DNA from: Lachnospiraceae bacterium
GTDB taxonomy: Bacteria; Bacillota; Clostridia; Lachnospirales; Lachnospiraceae
Reading direction: 5' to 3'
Assembly: GCA_017618075.1 (NCBI GenBank)
Contig: JAFZUY010000045.1
Coordinates: 62,001-126,000, forward strand
DNA length: 64,000 nt
The notes below the pieces were generated by a model. That model was given only the letters and a program-made list of their open reading frames with translations. It was not told the origin of the DNA and ran no database searches. Made by a program: the position numbers and the translations under genes. The stretch's first letter is position 1. Every line of letters starts with the position of its first letter. Shown in pieces: positions 16,930 through 27,020 of this stretch.

Positions 16930-16961
16930 AATCTAGTATGTTTTTGTCTAGGGATTAATTT

Positions 16962-17033
16962 GCACCCGTAGTCTAATGGATAGAATATTGGCCTCCGACG
17001 CCAAGGATGCAGGTTCGATTCCTGTCGGGTGCA
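16962..17033 (+). tRNA. tRNA-Arg (anticodon CCG)
   Basis: Acceptor arms GCACCCG (16962-16968) and CGGGTGC (17026-17032) with discriminator A17033. The anticodon stem is TTGGC/GCCAA with loop CTCCGAC, giving CCG, which reads CGG arginine codons. The T arm has GCAGG-TTCGATT-CCTGT. The 3' CCA is not encoded, so it must be added enzymatically. It is a lone tRNA; the next gene starts 34 bases later, probably on the same transcript. Confidence 0.95.
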
Positions 17034-17066
17034 TACTATGTAGTTTATTGGGAGTGTATTTATTTA

Positions 17067-18326
17067 ATGAAAGACAATTCAAAATCTTTACTGGAGAGGG
17101 TATGGATTATTGTTAAAAAGAATATACTTGTTTCTGCGACTCTTGTTTTTGTAGTTATTTTGCTTATTGTTTCCATCGCGCTTGTTGGCATTACACGCAT
17201 TCGTGAAAAGAAGGCCGCACAGCGTGCTTATGAGGCTTTGTCTGAAGAAGAGAAGGCTTTGCTTAATCAGGATTTTACCGTGGTTAAGGATGGCTATGAC
17301 TTTGTAAACAGAGCGATGACTGATTATCTTAATGCTCTTGCAGACAACAATCAGGCTTATTTAAAAGAAAATATGTTCTCAATTAACAACAATGAACTTG
17401 ATAATGTTGAAGTTAAGAGCAAATATATCGATCGCTACGATAATATAGTTTGTTATACTCAGCAGGGATATGAAGATGAATCCTTTTATGTATATGTTAC
17501 ATACGACATTTATTTTAAGGACATTGATACTCCGGTTCCCGGCATAATCGGTCTCTACTATGCGAAGGATTCGCTTGAAAAATACAGAATATTCAAGCAG
17601 AACAATATGTCTTCGTTAGTTCTTCAGAATTTCTATATTGCTTACATGCAGCAGGATGTTCAGGATATTTACAATCAGGTTTCTCTTAAATACAATGAAA
17701 CTCTTGAATCCGATGAAGAACTCAATGATTTTATGCTTTCATATCAGGATATCATGAATAATGATATGGTTGCATTAAATGAGGAAAGAGAGCGAATTGC
17801 GGCAGAGCAGGCTCAGCTTGACGATGATAATGCAAATCAGGGCCCTGTCAGAGAAAGAGTTAAAGCGACTACCAGTGTAAATGTCAGATCTTCTGATTCA
17901 GAAACAGCCGAAAGACTCGGAACAGTTTCGGAAGGAGCTATACTGACCAGAATCGAATCAAAACTTAACGGCTGGTCAAAGGTTGAATACGAAGGAAAAG
18001 AAGCGTATATAAAGTCCGAATATCTCCAGGTGGTTGATTCCGACGGAAATGCTGTTGAAGAGAATAACACCAACACTCAGGTCGACAACAATACCAACAC
18101 TAATACGAATAATAACACCGCAAATAATAATGATGACGGTGAGAAAAAATATGTTTCGGCAATTGATAACGTAAATATCAGATCCGAAGCGGATATTGAT
18201 GCCGAAAGAGTCGGATTTGCTTATAACGGTGACAAACTTGAATTTGTCGAAAAGCTCTCGAACGGCTGGACAAAGATAAAATATAACGGCAAGGACGCCT
18301 ACGTTAAAAGCGACTATGTACAGTAA
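17067..18326 (+). CDS. Membrane-anchored protein with two SH3b domains
   Basis: 419 residues from ATG 17067 (an in-frame ATG at 17007 is inside the tRNA and is rejected). One N-terminal membrane helix at about residues 14-35 suggests a signal-anchor with the rest outside the cell. A middle domain of ~150 residues (VYVTYDIYFKDIDTPVPGI) is unrecognised. Two bacterial SH3 domains follow, VNVRSSDSETAERLGTVSEG and VNIRSEADIDAERVGFAYNG, separated by an Asn/Thr-rich linker. SH3b domains usually bind peptidoglycan, so a cell-wall role is likely. The ribosome binding site GGGAG is rather far from the ATG. Confidence 0.85.
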   Translation: MKDNSKSLLERVWIIVKKNILVSATLVFVVILLIVSIALVGITRIREKKAAQRAYEALSEEEKALLNQDFTVVKDGYDFVNRAMTDYLNALADNNQAYLKENMFSINNNELDNVEVKSKYIDRYDNIVCYTQQGYEDESFYVYVTYDIYFKDIDTPVPGIIGLYYAKDSLEKYRIFKQNNMSSLVLQNFYIAYMQQDVQDIYNQVSLKYNETLESDEELNDFMLSYQDIMNNDMVALNEERERIAAEQAQLDDDNANQGPVRERVKATTSVNVRSSDSETAERLGTVSEGAILTRIESKLNGWSKVEYEGKEAYIKSEYLQVVDSDGNAVEENNTNTQVDNNTNTNTNNNTANNNDDGEKKYVSAIDNVNIRSEADIDAERVGFAYNGDKLEFVEKLSNGWTKIKYNGKDAYVKSDYVQ

Positions 18327-22059: not shown

Positions 22060-23001
22060 ATGAACTGGTTTAACAAATTAGAGAGGAAATTCGGCAAATA
22101 TGCAATACCGAATTTACCTCTGATAATCGTAATTATATATGCGTTCGGATTTTTAATGAATCTGGTAAAACCGGACTGGATAAATTTTGTAACACTTAAT
22201 CCCGAAGCGATTGTCCACGGACAGGTATGGAGACTTGTTTCCTGGATATTTGTTCCCGACAGCTATTCGAATGTATTTTTTGTACTGATTTTCCTGTTCT
22301 TTTATTTTTCAATCGGACGAAATCTTGAGGTTGCCTGGGGAAAATTCGCATTTAACGTATTTTTCTTTATGGGAGTATTTCTTACAATAATCGGCGCATT
22401 CCTTTTATTCGGATATTTTAAAGTTGTTGCTCCTAATTATGTTACGAATATGGACGCTGTTTATAAATCGGTTTTGGGTAAGGCGTGTCCTTCGTCGCTT
22501 GGCGGTTCGTGGTTCTTCCACTATATGTCGTTTTCTTTCAGCACATATTATCTGAATCTTTCGATATTCCTTGCTTATGCGATTACCTATCCGAATATGA
22601 GAGTTCTGATGTTCTTCCTTATTCCGATAAAGGTAAAGATTCTCGGTATTATCTATGTTGTCGTTCTTGCGGTAAATGTATTATTATCATTCGTTCAGGG
22701 CGGATTTAACAGCGGAATTATTACACTTGTTACTGTTTGCACGTCGTTACTTAATGTTTTGGTTTTCTATCTTTTGCTCAGAAAGGGTAAAAAGAGATTT
22801 AAGGAAATCAAACGTCAGAAGGAATTCAAAAAGAAGATTAAAGCGGTTTCGGAGCCTGTTTCCATGATAAGACACAAATGTGCAATATGCGGACAGACCG
22901 ATGTTTCCAACCCTTCGCTTACATTCAGATACTGTTCCAAATGTAACGGCAATTACGAATACTGCAATGAGCATTTGTTCACACACAAACATATTGAATA
23001 A
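22060..23001 (+). CDS. Rhomboid-like membrane protein with C-terminal zinc ribbon
   Basis: 313 residues with about six hydrophobic segments and the rhomboid/derlin-like feature WRLVSWIFVPDSYSNVFFVLIFLFFYF. The catalytic GxSG motif and matching His of active rhomboids are not visible, so it may be a non-proteolytic relative. After the membrane part comes a basic helix (KKRFKEIKRQKEFKKK) and a Cys/His-rich ribbon, CAICG...CSKCNGNYEYCNEHLFTH, facing the cytosol by inference. The ATG abuts the metA stop codon, which suggests translational coupling. The substrate or partner is unknown. Confidence 0.65.
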   Translation: MNWFNKLERKFGKYAIPNLPLIIVIIYAFGFLMNLVKPDWINFVTLNPEAIVHGQVWRLVSWIFVPDSYSNVFFVLIFLFFYFSIGRNLEVAWGKFAFNVFFFMGVFLTIIGAFLLFGYFKVVAPNYVTNMDAVYKSVLGKACPSSLGGSWFFHYMSFSFSTYYLNLSIFLAYAITYPNMRVLMFFLIPIKVKILGIIYVVVLAVNVLLSFVQGGFNSGIITLVTVCTSLLNVLVFYLLLRKGKKRFKEIKRQKEFKKKIKAVSEPVSMIRHKCAICGQTDVSNPSLTFRYCSKCNGNYEYCNEHLFTHKHIE

Positions 23002-23016
23002 TTTCGGTAAATAAAA

Positions 23017-23757
23017 ATGGACGAAAAAAAACTATTTATTTCTCAGATGGATAAGCTTTTAAAATACGGAAGAGAGAATGGCAATTTTGTTACCAAGGCC
23101 GATGTGGATTCCTATTTTAAGGACATTCATCTTGATGAAGAGAAAAAACAATTTATATACAATTTTCTCTATGATGCAAAAATCGGAGTGGACGAACCCT
23201 TTGATTTCGATGAGATTTTAGACGAAGAAGATGTGGATTTCCTTCAGATGTACATCGATGAGCTCGAAGGCGTTAAGAAATACACTCAAAAGGAAAAGCA
23301 TGATCTTTTAAGAAGATTTGCTGACGGAGAAGGTCTTTTACGAGATAAGGTTATAGAAAGCTATTTGCATGATATCGTTGAAATGTCAAAGCTTTACACC
23401 GGTTCGGGCGTTCCTATAGAGGATTTAATAGGAGAAGGAAATGTTGCACTTGCGGTTATTTTAGAGTCTCTTGATTCAAAGAGCTCCGCAAAGGAACTCG
23501 ACGGCTTTATTACCGACGGTATAATGAGTGCAATGGAAGAGCTTTTGTATGATGATAACAACGAGGCCGCCAAATTAAATACCTGGGCTGAAAATGCCAA
23601 CGAAGTCCTTGAGAAAGCAAAAGAATTATACGAAACTCTTCAGAGAAACGTAACAATTGAGGAACTCTGTAAATTCGGTGATTTTGAAGAAGATTTTATC
23701 AAAGAAGTATTACAGATTACGGGCGGTATTGAAATAATAGACAATCCCAAATCATAA
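23017..23757 (+). CDS. Sigma-70-like protein lacking DNA-recognition regions
   Basis: 246 residues. Residues 5-60 resemble sigma region 1.1 (LLKYGRENGNFVTKADVDSYF), 73-105 region 1.2 (DFLQMYIDELEGVKKYTQKEK), and 106-152 regions 2.1-2.2 (DKVIESYLHDIVEMSKLYTG, VPIEDLIGEGNVAL), the part that binds the RNA polymerase clamp. Regions 2.3-2.4 are degenerate, a region-3-like helix pair follows (residues ~190-236, NVTIEELCKFG), and region 4 is absent. It should bind RNA polymerase core but not a promoter. It could be a regulator, a decoy or a degenerate paralog. The unknown 132-aa gene follows by 4 bases. Confidence 0.65.
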   Translation: MDEKKLFISQMDKLLKYGRENGNFVTKADVDSYFKDIHLDEEKKQFIYNFLYDAKIGVDEPFDFDEILDEEDVDFLQMYIDELEGVKKYTQKEKHDLLRRFADGEGLLRDKVIESYLHDIVEMSKLYTGSGVPIEDLIGEGNVALAVILESLDSKSSAKELDGFITDGIMSAMEELLYDDNNEAAKLNTWAENANEVLEKAKELYETLQRNVTIEELCKFGDFEEDFIKEVLQITGGIEIIDNPKS

Positions 23758-23761
23758 AAAT

Positions 23762-24160
23762 ATGGAACAGATCAACAGAGAATTTAAAGCCGTCATACAG
23801 GATATGACACACATATATGTCGGAGCACAGATGAGTGTGGCTGAATTAATGTCATATGAAGATGTTCCGTTTAAAGTAAAGGCTGTTTTTAACAAGTTCT
23901 TCGGTGAAGAGGGTCAGAGAGACGAAAAAATCTGTGTTTGTTTAGGAAAAATAAACCGTGATGATTTCGTTTATCAGGCGGTAAAACAATTAAAATTAAA
24001 GTTCAAAGTAGGCTTTTACTCAGAAAAGAACGGGAAAACCGTATACAAATCCAAAACTCTTACGCCGGATGAATATTTAGCCCTTCATTCGTCAGATGAA
24101 AAATATTTTGATGAGGAAGTAGTTTTCAATAAACTTGCACTCCTTGCTTTTTCCACGTAA
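23762..24160 (+). CDS. Unknown 132-aa protein
   Basis: I do not recognise the family. The protein is soluble, with no signal peptide, membrane helix or Cys motif, and alternates charged and hydrophobic segments (KAVIQDMTHIYVGAQMSV, CVCLGKINRDDFVYQAVKQLKLKFKVGFYSEKNGK). It starts 4 bases after the sigma-like gene, whose last codons give no clear ribosome binding site, so the two are probably translated together. A functional link to the sigma-like protein is plausible from position only. A promoter for the next gene follows. Confidence 0.7.
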   Translation: MEQINREFKAVIQDMTHIYVGAQMSVAELMSYEDVPFKVKAVFNKFFGEEGQRDEKICVCLGKINRDDFVYQAVKQLKLKFKVGFYSEKNGKTVYKSKTLTPDEYLALHSSDEKYFDEEVVFNKLALLAFST

Positions 24161-24190: not shown

Positions 24191-24221
24191 AAAATATCAA
24201 AATGTGGGGAATGAAAAATAT

Positions 24222-27020
24222 ATGGATTTAGAGCAGGACAAGAAGGTTAGCGGATATAAAAAAATACGATATTTTCTCATTATCGAGAATATCTTTATTG
24301 TGCTTGCCTTTCTTTTATTTGCGGTAGGTGCGTATTATATATACACTTTTAGCAGTTTAACATGGTTTGCGCTGGCATATTTCTTACTCGGCGCAGGTTT
24401 CTTTTTATTCGGTCTTTTCATTGCGTTTAAGATGGTAAAGGCCTTTCAGAGAGAAGATTTACCCATTTTCTTAAATATTACGGATTCGGCTGATGTAGAT
24501 CCCGAGACGGGTCTGCTTTATCTTGATACTTTTTCGGATAAAGCAATACAGCAGCTTGCCATTTCCATGTCCGATGTTTATCTGGCAGTTTTTGAAATTG
24601 AAGGTCTTGAACATCTTCGTCATTTCGTAGGCTCTCAGAAAGCGGCCGATATCAAGGCTGAAATCGGAGATGTTTTTAAAATGTATCAGAAACGAATGGG
24701 TGAAAGATTTGTGACTTTAGGCTGTAAATCCGGACATGAATTTCTGGTTATGACCAATGAGGTTGAGTTAAAGGATATTCAGACTTATCATAAGAATCTT
24801 ATGGATGAGATTAATGCAATACTCCTTCATTTGCCGTCATCAGAAAACTTCTGCGTTTACTGCGGCTATGCTTCATCAAGCCAGGGTAAAATCTACGATG
24901 ATCTTTTGACATATGCAGGATTCGCTGCAATGGAAGCATCAATGTTCTCAAAGAGCGAGCCGCATTATTTCTCACAGGATGCATTAAAGCGTCAGGAAAC
25001 AGAGTATCTAAGAAACGATAAAATCAAAAAGATTCTTGACGGCAATGAACTTCAGTATAATTTCCAGCCCATCGTATCTGCCAAAACAGGTAAGATTTAT
25101 GCATACGAAGCTTTGATGAGAACCAATAAGGAAATCGGTTTCTCACCTGTCGACGTTCTTGAAATGGCTGAAAGAAACGACAGACTTTACGAAGTTGAAC
25201 ATTATACATTCTTTAACGTTTTAAAGATTATGAACGAGAATGCGGCGATATTCGAAAACCGCAAACTATTCATCAATTCCATACCTACAGTTATCATAAA
25301 AGAAGACGAATTCAACGATTTGTACGTTCAGTACAAGGACGTTATGAAAAACCTCGTTATAGAGATTACCGAAAACGGTATGCAGTCCGAGGATTCGTGT
25401 GAGACAGTACACAAGTACATGAAGAAATCCGGCTGTGAGCTTGCTCTCGACGATTACGGTACAGGTTATTCGAATGCGTCAACTCTTCTTAACAACTCAC
25501 CGCATTATATTAAAATCGATCATTCCATCATCATGGGTATCGATACCGACTCAAGAAAACAGCAGATTGTATCCAATACGATTTCGTTTGGTAACAATCA
25601 CGGTATGAAGATTCTTGCCGAAGGTGTTGAAACACCCGATGAACTTCAGATGGTTATCCAGCTCGGATGTCATTTGATTCAGGGCTTCTATACCGGACGT
25701 CCCAACAGTGTAATCGCCGATTCGATTTCCGCAGAAATAGAAGACGAGATTATGGCTATTAACCTTAAGCTTGCCAAGCTTGCTCTTGAAAACAAGTCCT
25801 ATACACCCGGTAATTTCGAGACGGTTTCTCTTATTAATCTTGCTCTTGATTTCTATTCGCAGATTATCATTGAACAGCCTTCGGTTAATCTTGTCGGACT
25901 TAAGAGCAAAAAAGAAGTTAACATGTGCATTAAGGTTCCCGATAATATTGAAACAATTATCAATCTTAAGGACGTTAATATTCGAGGCAGAAACAATCCT
26001 ACGATTGAAATCGGCGAGAATTCGTTTGTTACGCTAACTCTTGAAGGAAACAACATTTTCTCTTACGAAGGTATTAAAGTTCCCGCAACATCCAGACTCA
26101 ATATTCAGGGCAAAGGCAATCTTACAATCAGGGTCGATCACAACAACGGTATCGGTATCGGTACGGGCTCCGATGAAAAGACACCTTACGGCGATATCAG
26201 TTTCGAAGGAACCGGAACGCTTCGTATCGAAGCGAACTCCGACCAGGCGTTTGCCATCGGTGGTGCATTAGCCGATGAGAATTCAAAGATTAAACTTGAT
26301 TCCGGTAATGTAGAAATTATCGTAAACGGTTCTAAGGTAGTCGGAATCGGTTCCATTAACGGTTTCACTCAGATTATTGTCAATCAGTCCCATGTTGCCA
26401 TTTCCGCATCAGGTGCCGATGCTGTCGGTATCGGTTCGATGGAAGGCAGGGTTGAAATCAATACAAGCGCAGACATCGAACTTGAGGCTTCGGGCAGCCG
26501 TGCAACAGGTATAGGCGTATTACAGTACGGTAAGGGACGTATATATATCAATTCGGGATTTGTTTCCTGTAACGTTCATTCTATGAGCGGTATGGGTATC
26601 GGTTCGTTAGACGGTGATATGGATATCAGAAGCTCCGCTGAGCAGGTATTTGTTTATGTCGAAGGTTCTGAGGTCGGCGGAATCGGAACATATCACGGCT
26701 ATGGTATGACGAGGATCCAAAACGGCGTTCATAAGGTTGTGCTTCTTGCTGCGAATCCTGTCAGCCTTGGCGGTATGAAGGGCAGACTTGAGATTACGGG
26801 CGGCAATATTTATGCAGATCTTGCAAATTCACCCGATCCCGTTAACCAGTTTGATGTACCTGTATTCCAGAAGATTGTTACGGATACAGAATTCTACAAC
26901 AAAAAGATCGAGACTGAAGAGGGATCATATCAGTATATGGCTACTTCTTCCAAACTGTTTGAAAACATATACGTATATATTCCCAAATACTGCAAAGAAC
27001 TTGACTCAAATGTCATATAA
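24222..27020 (+). CDS. Membrane GGDEF-like/EAL protein with C-terminal beta-helix-like domain
   Basis: 932 residues from ATG 24222. Two membrane helices (~20-75), a degenerate GGDEF domain (~92-240, starting DPETGLLYLDTF but without a clear GGDEF signature), and an EAL domain (~275-500) with YEALMRT, ALDDYGTGYSN, LAEGVETPDE and IQGFYTGRP, which suggests active c-di-GMP phosphodiesterase. Residues ~575-860 hold repeats ending in GIG (GIGIGTGSDE, VVGIGSINGF, AVGIGSMEGR, ATGIGVLQYG, GMGIGSLDGD, VGGIGTYHGY) alternating with short strands, like a right-handed beta-helix. Such repeats are better known from surface proteins; here they should be cytosolic, given the topology. The architecture is unusual. 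Confidence 0.85.
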   Translation: MDLEQDKKVSGYKKIRYFLIIENIFIVLAFLLFAVGAYYIYTFSSLTWFALAYFLLGAGFFLFGLFIAFKMVKAFQREDLPIFLNITDSADVDPETGLLYLDTFSDKAIQQLAISMSDVYLAVFEIEGLEHLRHFVGSQKAADIKAEIGDVFKMYQKRMGERFVTLGCKSGHEFLVMTNEVELKDIQTYHKNLMDEINAILLHLPSSENFCVYCGYASSSQGKIYDDLLTYAGFAAMEASMFSKSEPHYFSQDALKRQETEYLRNDKIKKILDGNELQYNFQPIVSAKTGKIYAYEALMRTNKEIGFSPVDVLEMAERNDRLYEVEHYTFFNVLKIMNENAAIFENRKLFINSIPTVIIKEDEFNDLYVQYKDVMKNLVIEITENGMQSEDSCETVHKYMKKSGCELALDDYGTGYSNASTLLNNSPHYIKIDHSIIMGIDTDSRKQQIVSNTISFGNNHGMKILAEGVETPDELQMVIQLGCHLIQGFYTGRPNSVIADSISAEIEDEIMAINLKLAKLALENKSYTPGNFETVSLINLALDFYSQIIIEQPSVNLVGLKSKKEVNMCIKVPDNIETIINLKDVNIRGRNNPTIEIGENSFVTLTLEGNNIFSYEGIKVPATSRLNIQGKGNLTIRVDHNNGIGIGTGSDEKTPYGDISFEGTGTLRIEANSDQAFAIGGALADENSKIKLDSGNVEIIVNGSKVVGIGSINGFTQIIVNQSHVAISASGADAVGIGSMEGRVEINTSADIELEASGSRATGIGVLQYGKGRIYINSGFVSCNVHSMSGMGIGSLDGDMDIRSSAEQVFVYVEGSEVGGIGTYHGYGMTRIQNGVHKVVLLAANPVSLGGMKGRLEITGGNIYADLANSPDPVNQFDVPVFQKIVTDTEFYNKKIETEEGSYQYMATSSKLFENIYVYIPKYCKELDSNVI

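Follow-up and report, generated by a model that had tools for sequence, protein, structure and literature searches.

A Short Sigma-70 Paralogue of the Lachnospiraceae with a Conserved Region 2.2 and Degenerate Promoter-Reading Regions: A Candidate Regulator of RNA Polymerase

The SIGL Locus and Its Sigma-70 Regions

An open reading frame of 246 amino acids, starting with ATG, occupies exactly positions 23017–23757 on the forward strand of the window, by which we mean the whole stretch of 64,000 nucleotides of Lachnospiraceae DNA that was analyzed. We designate its product, a sigma-70-like protein, as SIGL. The gene upstream on the same strand, RHOM (22060–23001), encodes a membrane protein whose C-terminus bears a Cys/His ribbon; it looks rhomboid-like by eye, although no Pfam match for rhomboid was obtained. 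The gene downstream, PART (23762–24160, forward strand, 132 amino acids), begins 4 bp past the SIGL stop codon, belongs to no family that we could identify, and was found only with SIGL in the searched samples; this agrees with the original prediction, which had SIGL tightly linked to a gene of no known family.

The similarity of SIGL to sigma-70 proteins is far above chance, so that by sequence it is a homologue of the sigma-70 family. Residues 70–244 match the NCBIfam model for RpoS (E = 1.8e-14), and comparison with SigA in the PDB gives E = 2.6e-13 with the single sequence and 2e-27 with a profile of 75 rows; the significant sigma-70 match that had been suggested as a check is thus present. 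Pfam matches were obtained for a region 1.1-like segment (residues 9–60, positions 23041–23196, forward strand; PF03979, E = 0.0016), for region 2 (residues 113–156, E = 0.0054), where the match stops before 2.3–2.4, and for a region 3-like segment (residues 192–235, positions 23590–23721, forward strand; PF04539, E = 3.6e-4). All three single-sequence matches lie under the Pfam gathering scores; when 75 relatives were scanned singly at E ≤ 0.1, region 2 was found in 72, region 3 in 67, and region 1.1 in 51. The Pfam model for region 1.2 gave no match in SIGL, and the assignment of this region rests on the longer alignments with SigA. The order of sigma regions originally proposed therefore stands by homology for 1.1 (weakly), 1.2–2.2, and 3, with the Pfam 1.2 model remaining silent. 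Four short relatives (L023, L024, L128, and L145) have no region 1.1-like part, which is therefore not essential everywhere.

Region 2.2 carries the motif DLIGEGNVAL (residues 136–145, positions 23422–23451, forward strand), which we take to be equivalent to residues 403–412 in the Escherichia coli sigma-70 numbering used below. Downstream of it, at about residues 152–185 (positions 23470–23571, forward strand), regions 2.3–2.4 are degenerate: the promoter-reading aromatic and basic residues are gone and the segment is acidic, with M170, M173, and E174 nearly fixed across the SIGL subtype found in the window. In the alignment with SigA, SIGL ends where domain 3 ends, and the region 3.2 finger is accordingly missing. 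Taken together, 37 SIGL members match 15 Pfam families (E ≤ 0.01), and region 4, predicted to be absent, is indeed none of them; in the positive control, SigA from the same genome, regions 1.1 to 4 were all detected, region 4 at 2.7e-19. SigA/RpoD, the primary sigma-70, is the best match of SIGL, sharing with it the motif of region 2.2 and the order 1.1, 1.2, 2.1–2.2, and 3; SIGL differs in having no promoter-reading 2.3–2.4, no 3.2, and no region 4, and in being acidic where SigA is basic.

The genome from which the window derives is 89% complete and contains ten region 2 matches, nine of them above the Pfam cut-off and that of SIGL below it; eight of the other nine proteins have open frames of 166–208 codons. 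A link to sporulation was looked for in the same genome through Spo0A_C, which gave no match.

Distribution, Phylogeny, and Selection

Within the genus, 25 genomes were searched (that of the window and 24 others), and every one of them encodes a short SIGL, with identities of 35–100% and alongside longer sigma factors. Across the family, 298 Lachnospiraceae genomes were sampled, and among the matches listed a short SIGL was found in at least 117 of them, each read at the fetched locus; this is a lower bound, with only four genomes (G502, G633, G566, and G565) examined among those whose SIGL scores below SigA. A search of genome_contigs confirmed at least 498 stretches, 80 loci of which were analyzed, and most of the matches listed bear Lachnospiraceae titles, including Butyrivibrio, Eisenbergiella, and Acetatifactor. 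A class-level search of 196 genomes, with thresholds that detect only the window's SIGL subtype and PART, recovered five genomes for each of the two; these are identical sets, consisting of Lachnospiraceae alone. In a tree of 86 rows, the 70 SIGL sequences form one clade apart from 16 SigA sequences (support 100/100, bootstrap not settled). A phage origin was considered and rejected, as the SIGL profile gave 75 pattern matches in viral_contigs, none of which was confirmed as a relative.

The regions lost relative to SigA could be taken as the mark of a functionless, decayed SigA paralogue, as the original prediction had allowed. The breadth of the distribution, with retention in every congeneric genome, speaks against this, as do the intact frames and the conserved length, mostly 240–300 amino acids in the 231 SIGL loci, which yield 214 distinct sequences. 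Furthermore, dN/dS between SIGL of the window and five relatives with measurable dS is 0.011–0.029 (five further pairs were saturated), showing strong purifying selection on SIGL across the Lachnospiraceae. No relatives with an intact 2.4 and region 4 were found that would make this copy a lone decayed allele. We consider decay refuted as far as sequence can tell, and give it next to no credence.

Residues Kept and Lost in Region 2

To compare SIGL with SigA position by position, we used lists of seven positions, which we take to be contacts with the β′ clamp, and fifteen, which we take to be DNA contacts. Averaged over the 214 distinct SIGL sequences, the SigA residue is kept at 74% for the clamp positions and 7% for the DNA-contact positions, with 28% over all 78 aligned columns. 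When sets were drawn at random 20,000 times from 63 SigA-invariant columns, a value as high as that of the clamp set arose in 0.005% and one as low as that of the DNA set in 0.1% of draws. Individually, the SigA residue persists at D403 (99% of the sequences), E407 (98%), N409 (100%), L384 (96%), and V387 (86%); at Q406, presumably a core-contact residue, the figure is 35%, and at position 413 it is 4%. R441 is found in 2%, and W433, W434, T429, Y425, and T440 in none; the pair of tryptophans is present in 17/17 SigA against 0/214 SIGL sequences, with a lone Trp within 425–442 in six of the latter. T440 is replaced by Glu in 132 of the 136 sequences of the window's kind, and the net charge of the segment equivalent to 417–459 is +4 in SigA, −6 in the window's subtype, and −4 in other SIGL, the alignment of columns 417–432 being uncertain. 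The degenerate 2.3–2.4 of the original prediction is borne out by these frequencies, and the check proposed there for a real factor, conservation of region 2.2 together with loss of 2.4 in many genomes, gives a positive result.

With regard to the features of a sigma factor, SIGL has the core-binding motif of region 2.2 (D403, E407, and N409, with Gln406 changed to Gly in the subtype) and has neither the aromatic and basic promoter-reading residues of 2.3–2.4 nor region 4. The alignments show a protein of SigA-like origin, with its sigma-2 surface around 2.2 kept and its DNA-reading surface lost and reversed in charge.

Two kinds of SIGL can be distinguished. The first, to which the copy in the window belongs, adjoins RHOM, usually followed by a gene for an M16 peptidase, and has Gly406 (in 134 of the 136 sequences with RHOM or PART nearby); its 36 rows in the tree form one clade (100/93), the sister of which is a long Gln406 row (bootstrap not settled). 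The second occurs at other loci and has Gln406 in 73 of 78 sequences, with E407 kept in 78/78 and N409 in 77/78. Two sequences depart from this pattern: L224 (genome G560) is not a neighbor of RHOM but has Gly406, its row in the tree being placed within the Gln406 group, and L230 (G595) has Gln406 beside RHOM.

PART, the Downstream Partner Gene

PART, of about 140 amino acids, usually lies 3′ of SIGL in the window's subtype. No usable match was obtained in Pfam or NCBIfam; the single PHROGs family matched has no known function (E = 0.0067, not usable), and the best PDB match (E = 0.19) is to an unrelated protein. Measured against the same relatives as SIGL, dN/dS of PART is 0.049–0.139. A PART-like open reading frame is present in 79 of the 80 analyzed genome_contigs loci (the exception being L042), at a distance of −20 to 206 bp from SIGL in 78 of these 79; at L102, two genes lie between them and the gap is 1474 bp.

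Across the order, 392 genomes were searched for PART and for the window's subtype of SIGL (E ≤ 1.2e-58), and the two sets of genomes recovered are identical, with 39 members; the genes are linked in 35 and unlinked in four (G270, G352, G301, and G319). The 298 genomes of the family include 38 with PART, and SIGL adjoins it in 38/38, counting G565, where SIGL is diverged and fell below the first search, and G433, where it is split by contig ends. At least six genomes (G414, G594, G464, G476, G544, and G512) encode SIGL of the window's kind with no match to PART; in four of these the M16 peptidase gene follows SIGL directly, leaving no space for PART, and in G594 a different open reading frame lies between. 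In these samples, then, PART always came with SIGL, and SIGL can dispense with PART. Of the 117 SIGL genomes, 73 fall outside both this group of six and the PART-bearing genomes. Four PART copies (L147, L148, L151, and L153) are unlinked from SIGL, and a gene that looks recA-like by eye lies near L147, L148, and L153.

The usual adjacency of the two genes would fit a split sigma factor, in which domain 2 would come from SIGL and the lost promoter recognition from PART, so that together they would start transcription. Precedents are T4 gp55 with gp33 (PMC2988020) and SigO–RsoA of Bacillus subtilis (PMC10141391), as outlined in sections of these two papers. Like SIGL with PART, gp55 is a small diverged sigma-2 protein with a separate small partner; it binds the β′ coiled-coil, and gp33 sits on the flap and represses basal transcription without reading DNA, according to parts of the same account (PMC2988020). 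However, gp55 recognizes the promoter, SIGL additionally has domains 1.1 and 3, and nothing similar to PART was detected among the PDB chains. SigO–RsoA likewise distributes sigma domains over two small proteins, but that pair directs transcription (PMC10141391, in part), whereas PART is not recognizable as sigma-4. As SIGL has lost the melting and −10 residues and has an acidic surface, as PART matches no DNA-binding family, and as most SIGL genomes have no PART, we regard a split sigma factor as very improbable.

A Putative Dummy Sigma on RNA Polymerase

With the grip on the polymerase seemingly kept and the DNA-reading parts lost, SIGL probably regulates RNA polymerase instead of starting genes. 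This supports the original prediction that such a protein could bind the clamp and not a promoter, and might serve as a sigma competitor, an anti-sigma-like regulator, or a polymerase accessory. We propose that it may be a DNA-blind sigma-70 paralogue turned polymerase regulator, which would dock on the clamp while PART modulates sigma access, a reading that we hold to be about evenly balanced between right and wrong. The 2.2 helix of SIGL would dock on the β′ clamp helices as that of SigA does, and SIGL would take or share the sigma-2 site without recognizing a promoter; access of sigma factors to the core would thereby be lowered or timed, SIGL acting as a competitor or a recycling factor. 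PART, in the subtype found in the window, would be a dedicated partner joining SIGL in one complex, perhaps by binding the polymerase at a second site. The RNA polymerase delta subunit, like SIGL a very acidic small protein, and one that acts as a polymerase-recycling factor, offers an analogy only to the proposed action of SIGL: the two have no sequence relation, the delta domain being HARE-HTH (PF05066), for which no match was found in the 89% complete genome, SIGL included.

Region 2.2 is the main interface with the β′ coiled-coil, as stated in part of PMC4598750. Some features nevertheless weigh against docking on the clamp. Replacement of Gln406 by Gly in the subtype and loss of M413 could weaken core binding, and some of the conservation in 2.2 concerns buried residues, which any use of the fold would keep. 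In addition, the SIGL proteins of three PART-bearing loci (L145, L181, and L203) have altered 2.2 motifs, with Glu407 replaced in two of them. The change at Gln406 and these altered motifs, together with the tight dependence of PART on SIGL, would suit a repurposed scaffold, in which the sigma-2/3 fold is retained solely as a binding platform for PART or some other protein of the cell and has no role left with the polymerase or with sigma factors. The 73 SIGL genomes outside the PART-bearing and PART-less subtype sets argue against such a scaffold, as does the near-complete retention of E407 and N409 at the other loci, and we consider it doubtful, though worth keeping in mind.

An extension of the proposed regulation of RNA polymerase, speculative and in our estimate rather unlikely, is a pseudo-holoenzyme module in which SIGL would occupy the sigma-2 site and PART a second one, with no reading of DNA, holding core polymerase in store or in sigma exchange as a family-wide layer of control in the Lachnospiraceae. 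Sigma competition is normally explained by anti-sigma factors and alternative sigma factors; a dummy sigma devoted to this task, together with a partner of its own, would, if real, add a mechanism to these, and the Lachnospiraceae, which are among the commonest gut bacteria of humans and animals, would carry a dummy occupying the sigma site of their polymerase. No description of the SIGL family in Lachnospiraceae was found in the open-licence literature, which is weak evidence of novelty. SIGL differs from the split sigma factors gp55/gp33 and SigO–RsoA and from PhyR, presented in portions of PMC4598750 as sigma-like without being a sigma factor. PhyR combines ECF-type sigma-2 and sigma-4 parts with a receiver, whereas SIGL is derived from SigA and has no sigma-4 and, among the Pfam families it matches, no receiver domain.

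The Neighborhood of SIGL

The conserved neighbors of SIGL are RHOM, PART, and the M16 peptidase. RHOM is present in 147 of 150 genomes of the family whatever their SIGL state; it is thus general in the Lachnospiraceae, and was rejected as a specific partner of SIGL.

This neighborhood bears on another reading, in which SIGL would act as a decoy for an anti-sigma factor. No anti-sigma gene is linked to SIGL, the conserved neighbors being a general membrane protein, PART, and the peptidase; there is no receiver domain, and the residues kept are those presumed to contact the polymerase. In favor of a decoy, the nine other region 2 proteins above the Pfam cut-off in the same genome could have anti-sigma factors, and anti-sigma factors can also block region 2.2 (passages in PMC4598750 and PMC4383634). 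We judge a decoy unlikely, and retain regulation of RNA polymerase by SIGL itself as the preferred reading.

Two further features of the window were recorded. Downstream of PART, positions 24213–27020 (forward strand) encode an EAL-domain protein of 935 amino acids (EAL, E = 5.6e-51) with a long glycine-rich repeat C-terminus; 18 of the loci compared contain a homologous gene. Farther upstream, a tRNA-Arg (CCG) at 16961–17034 overlaps the listed start of the open reading frame at 17007–18326, which therefore probably starts later.
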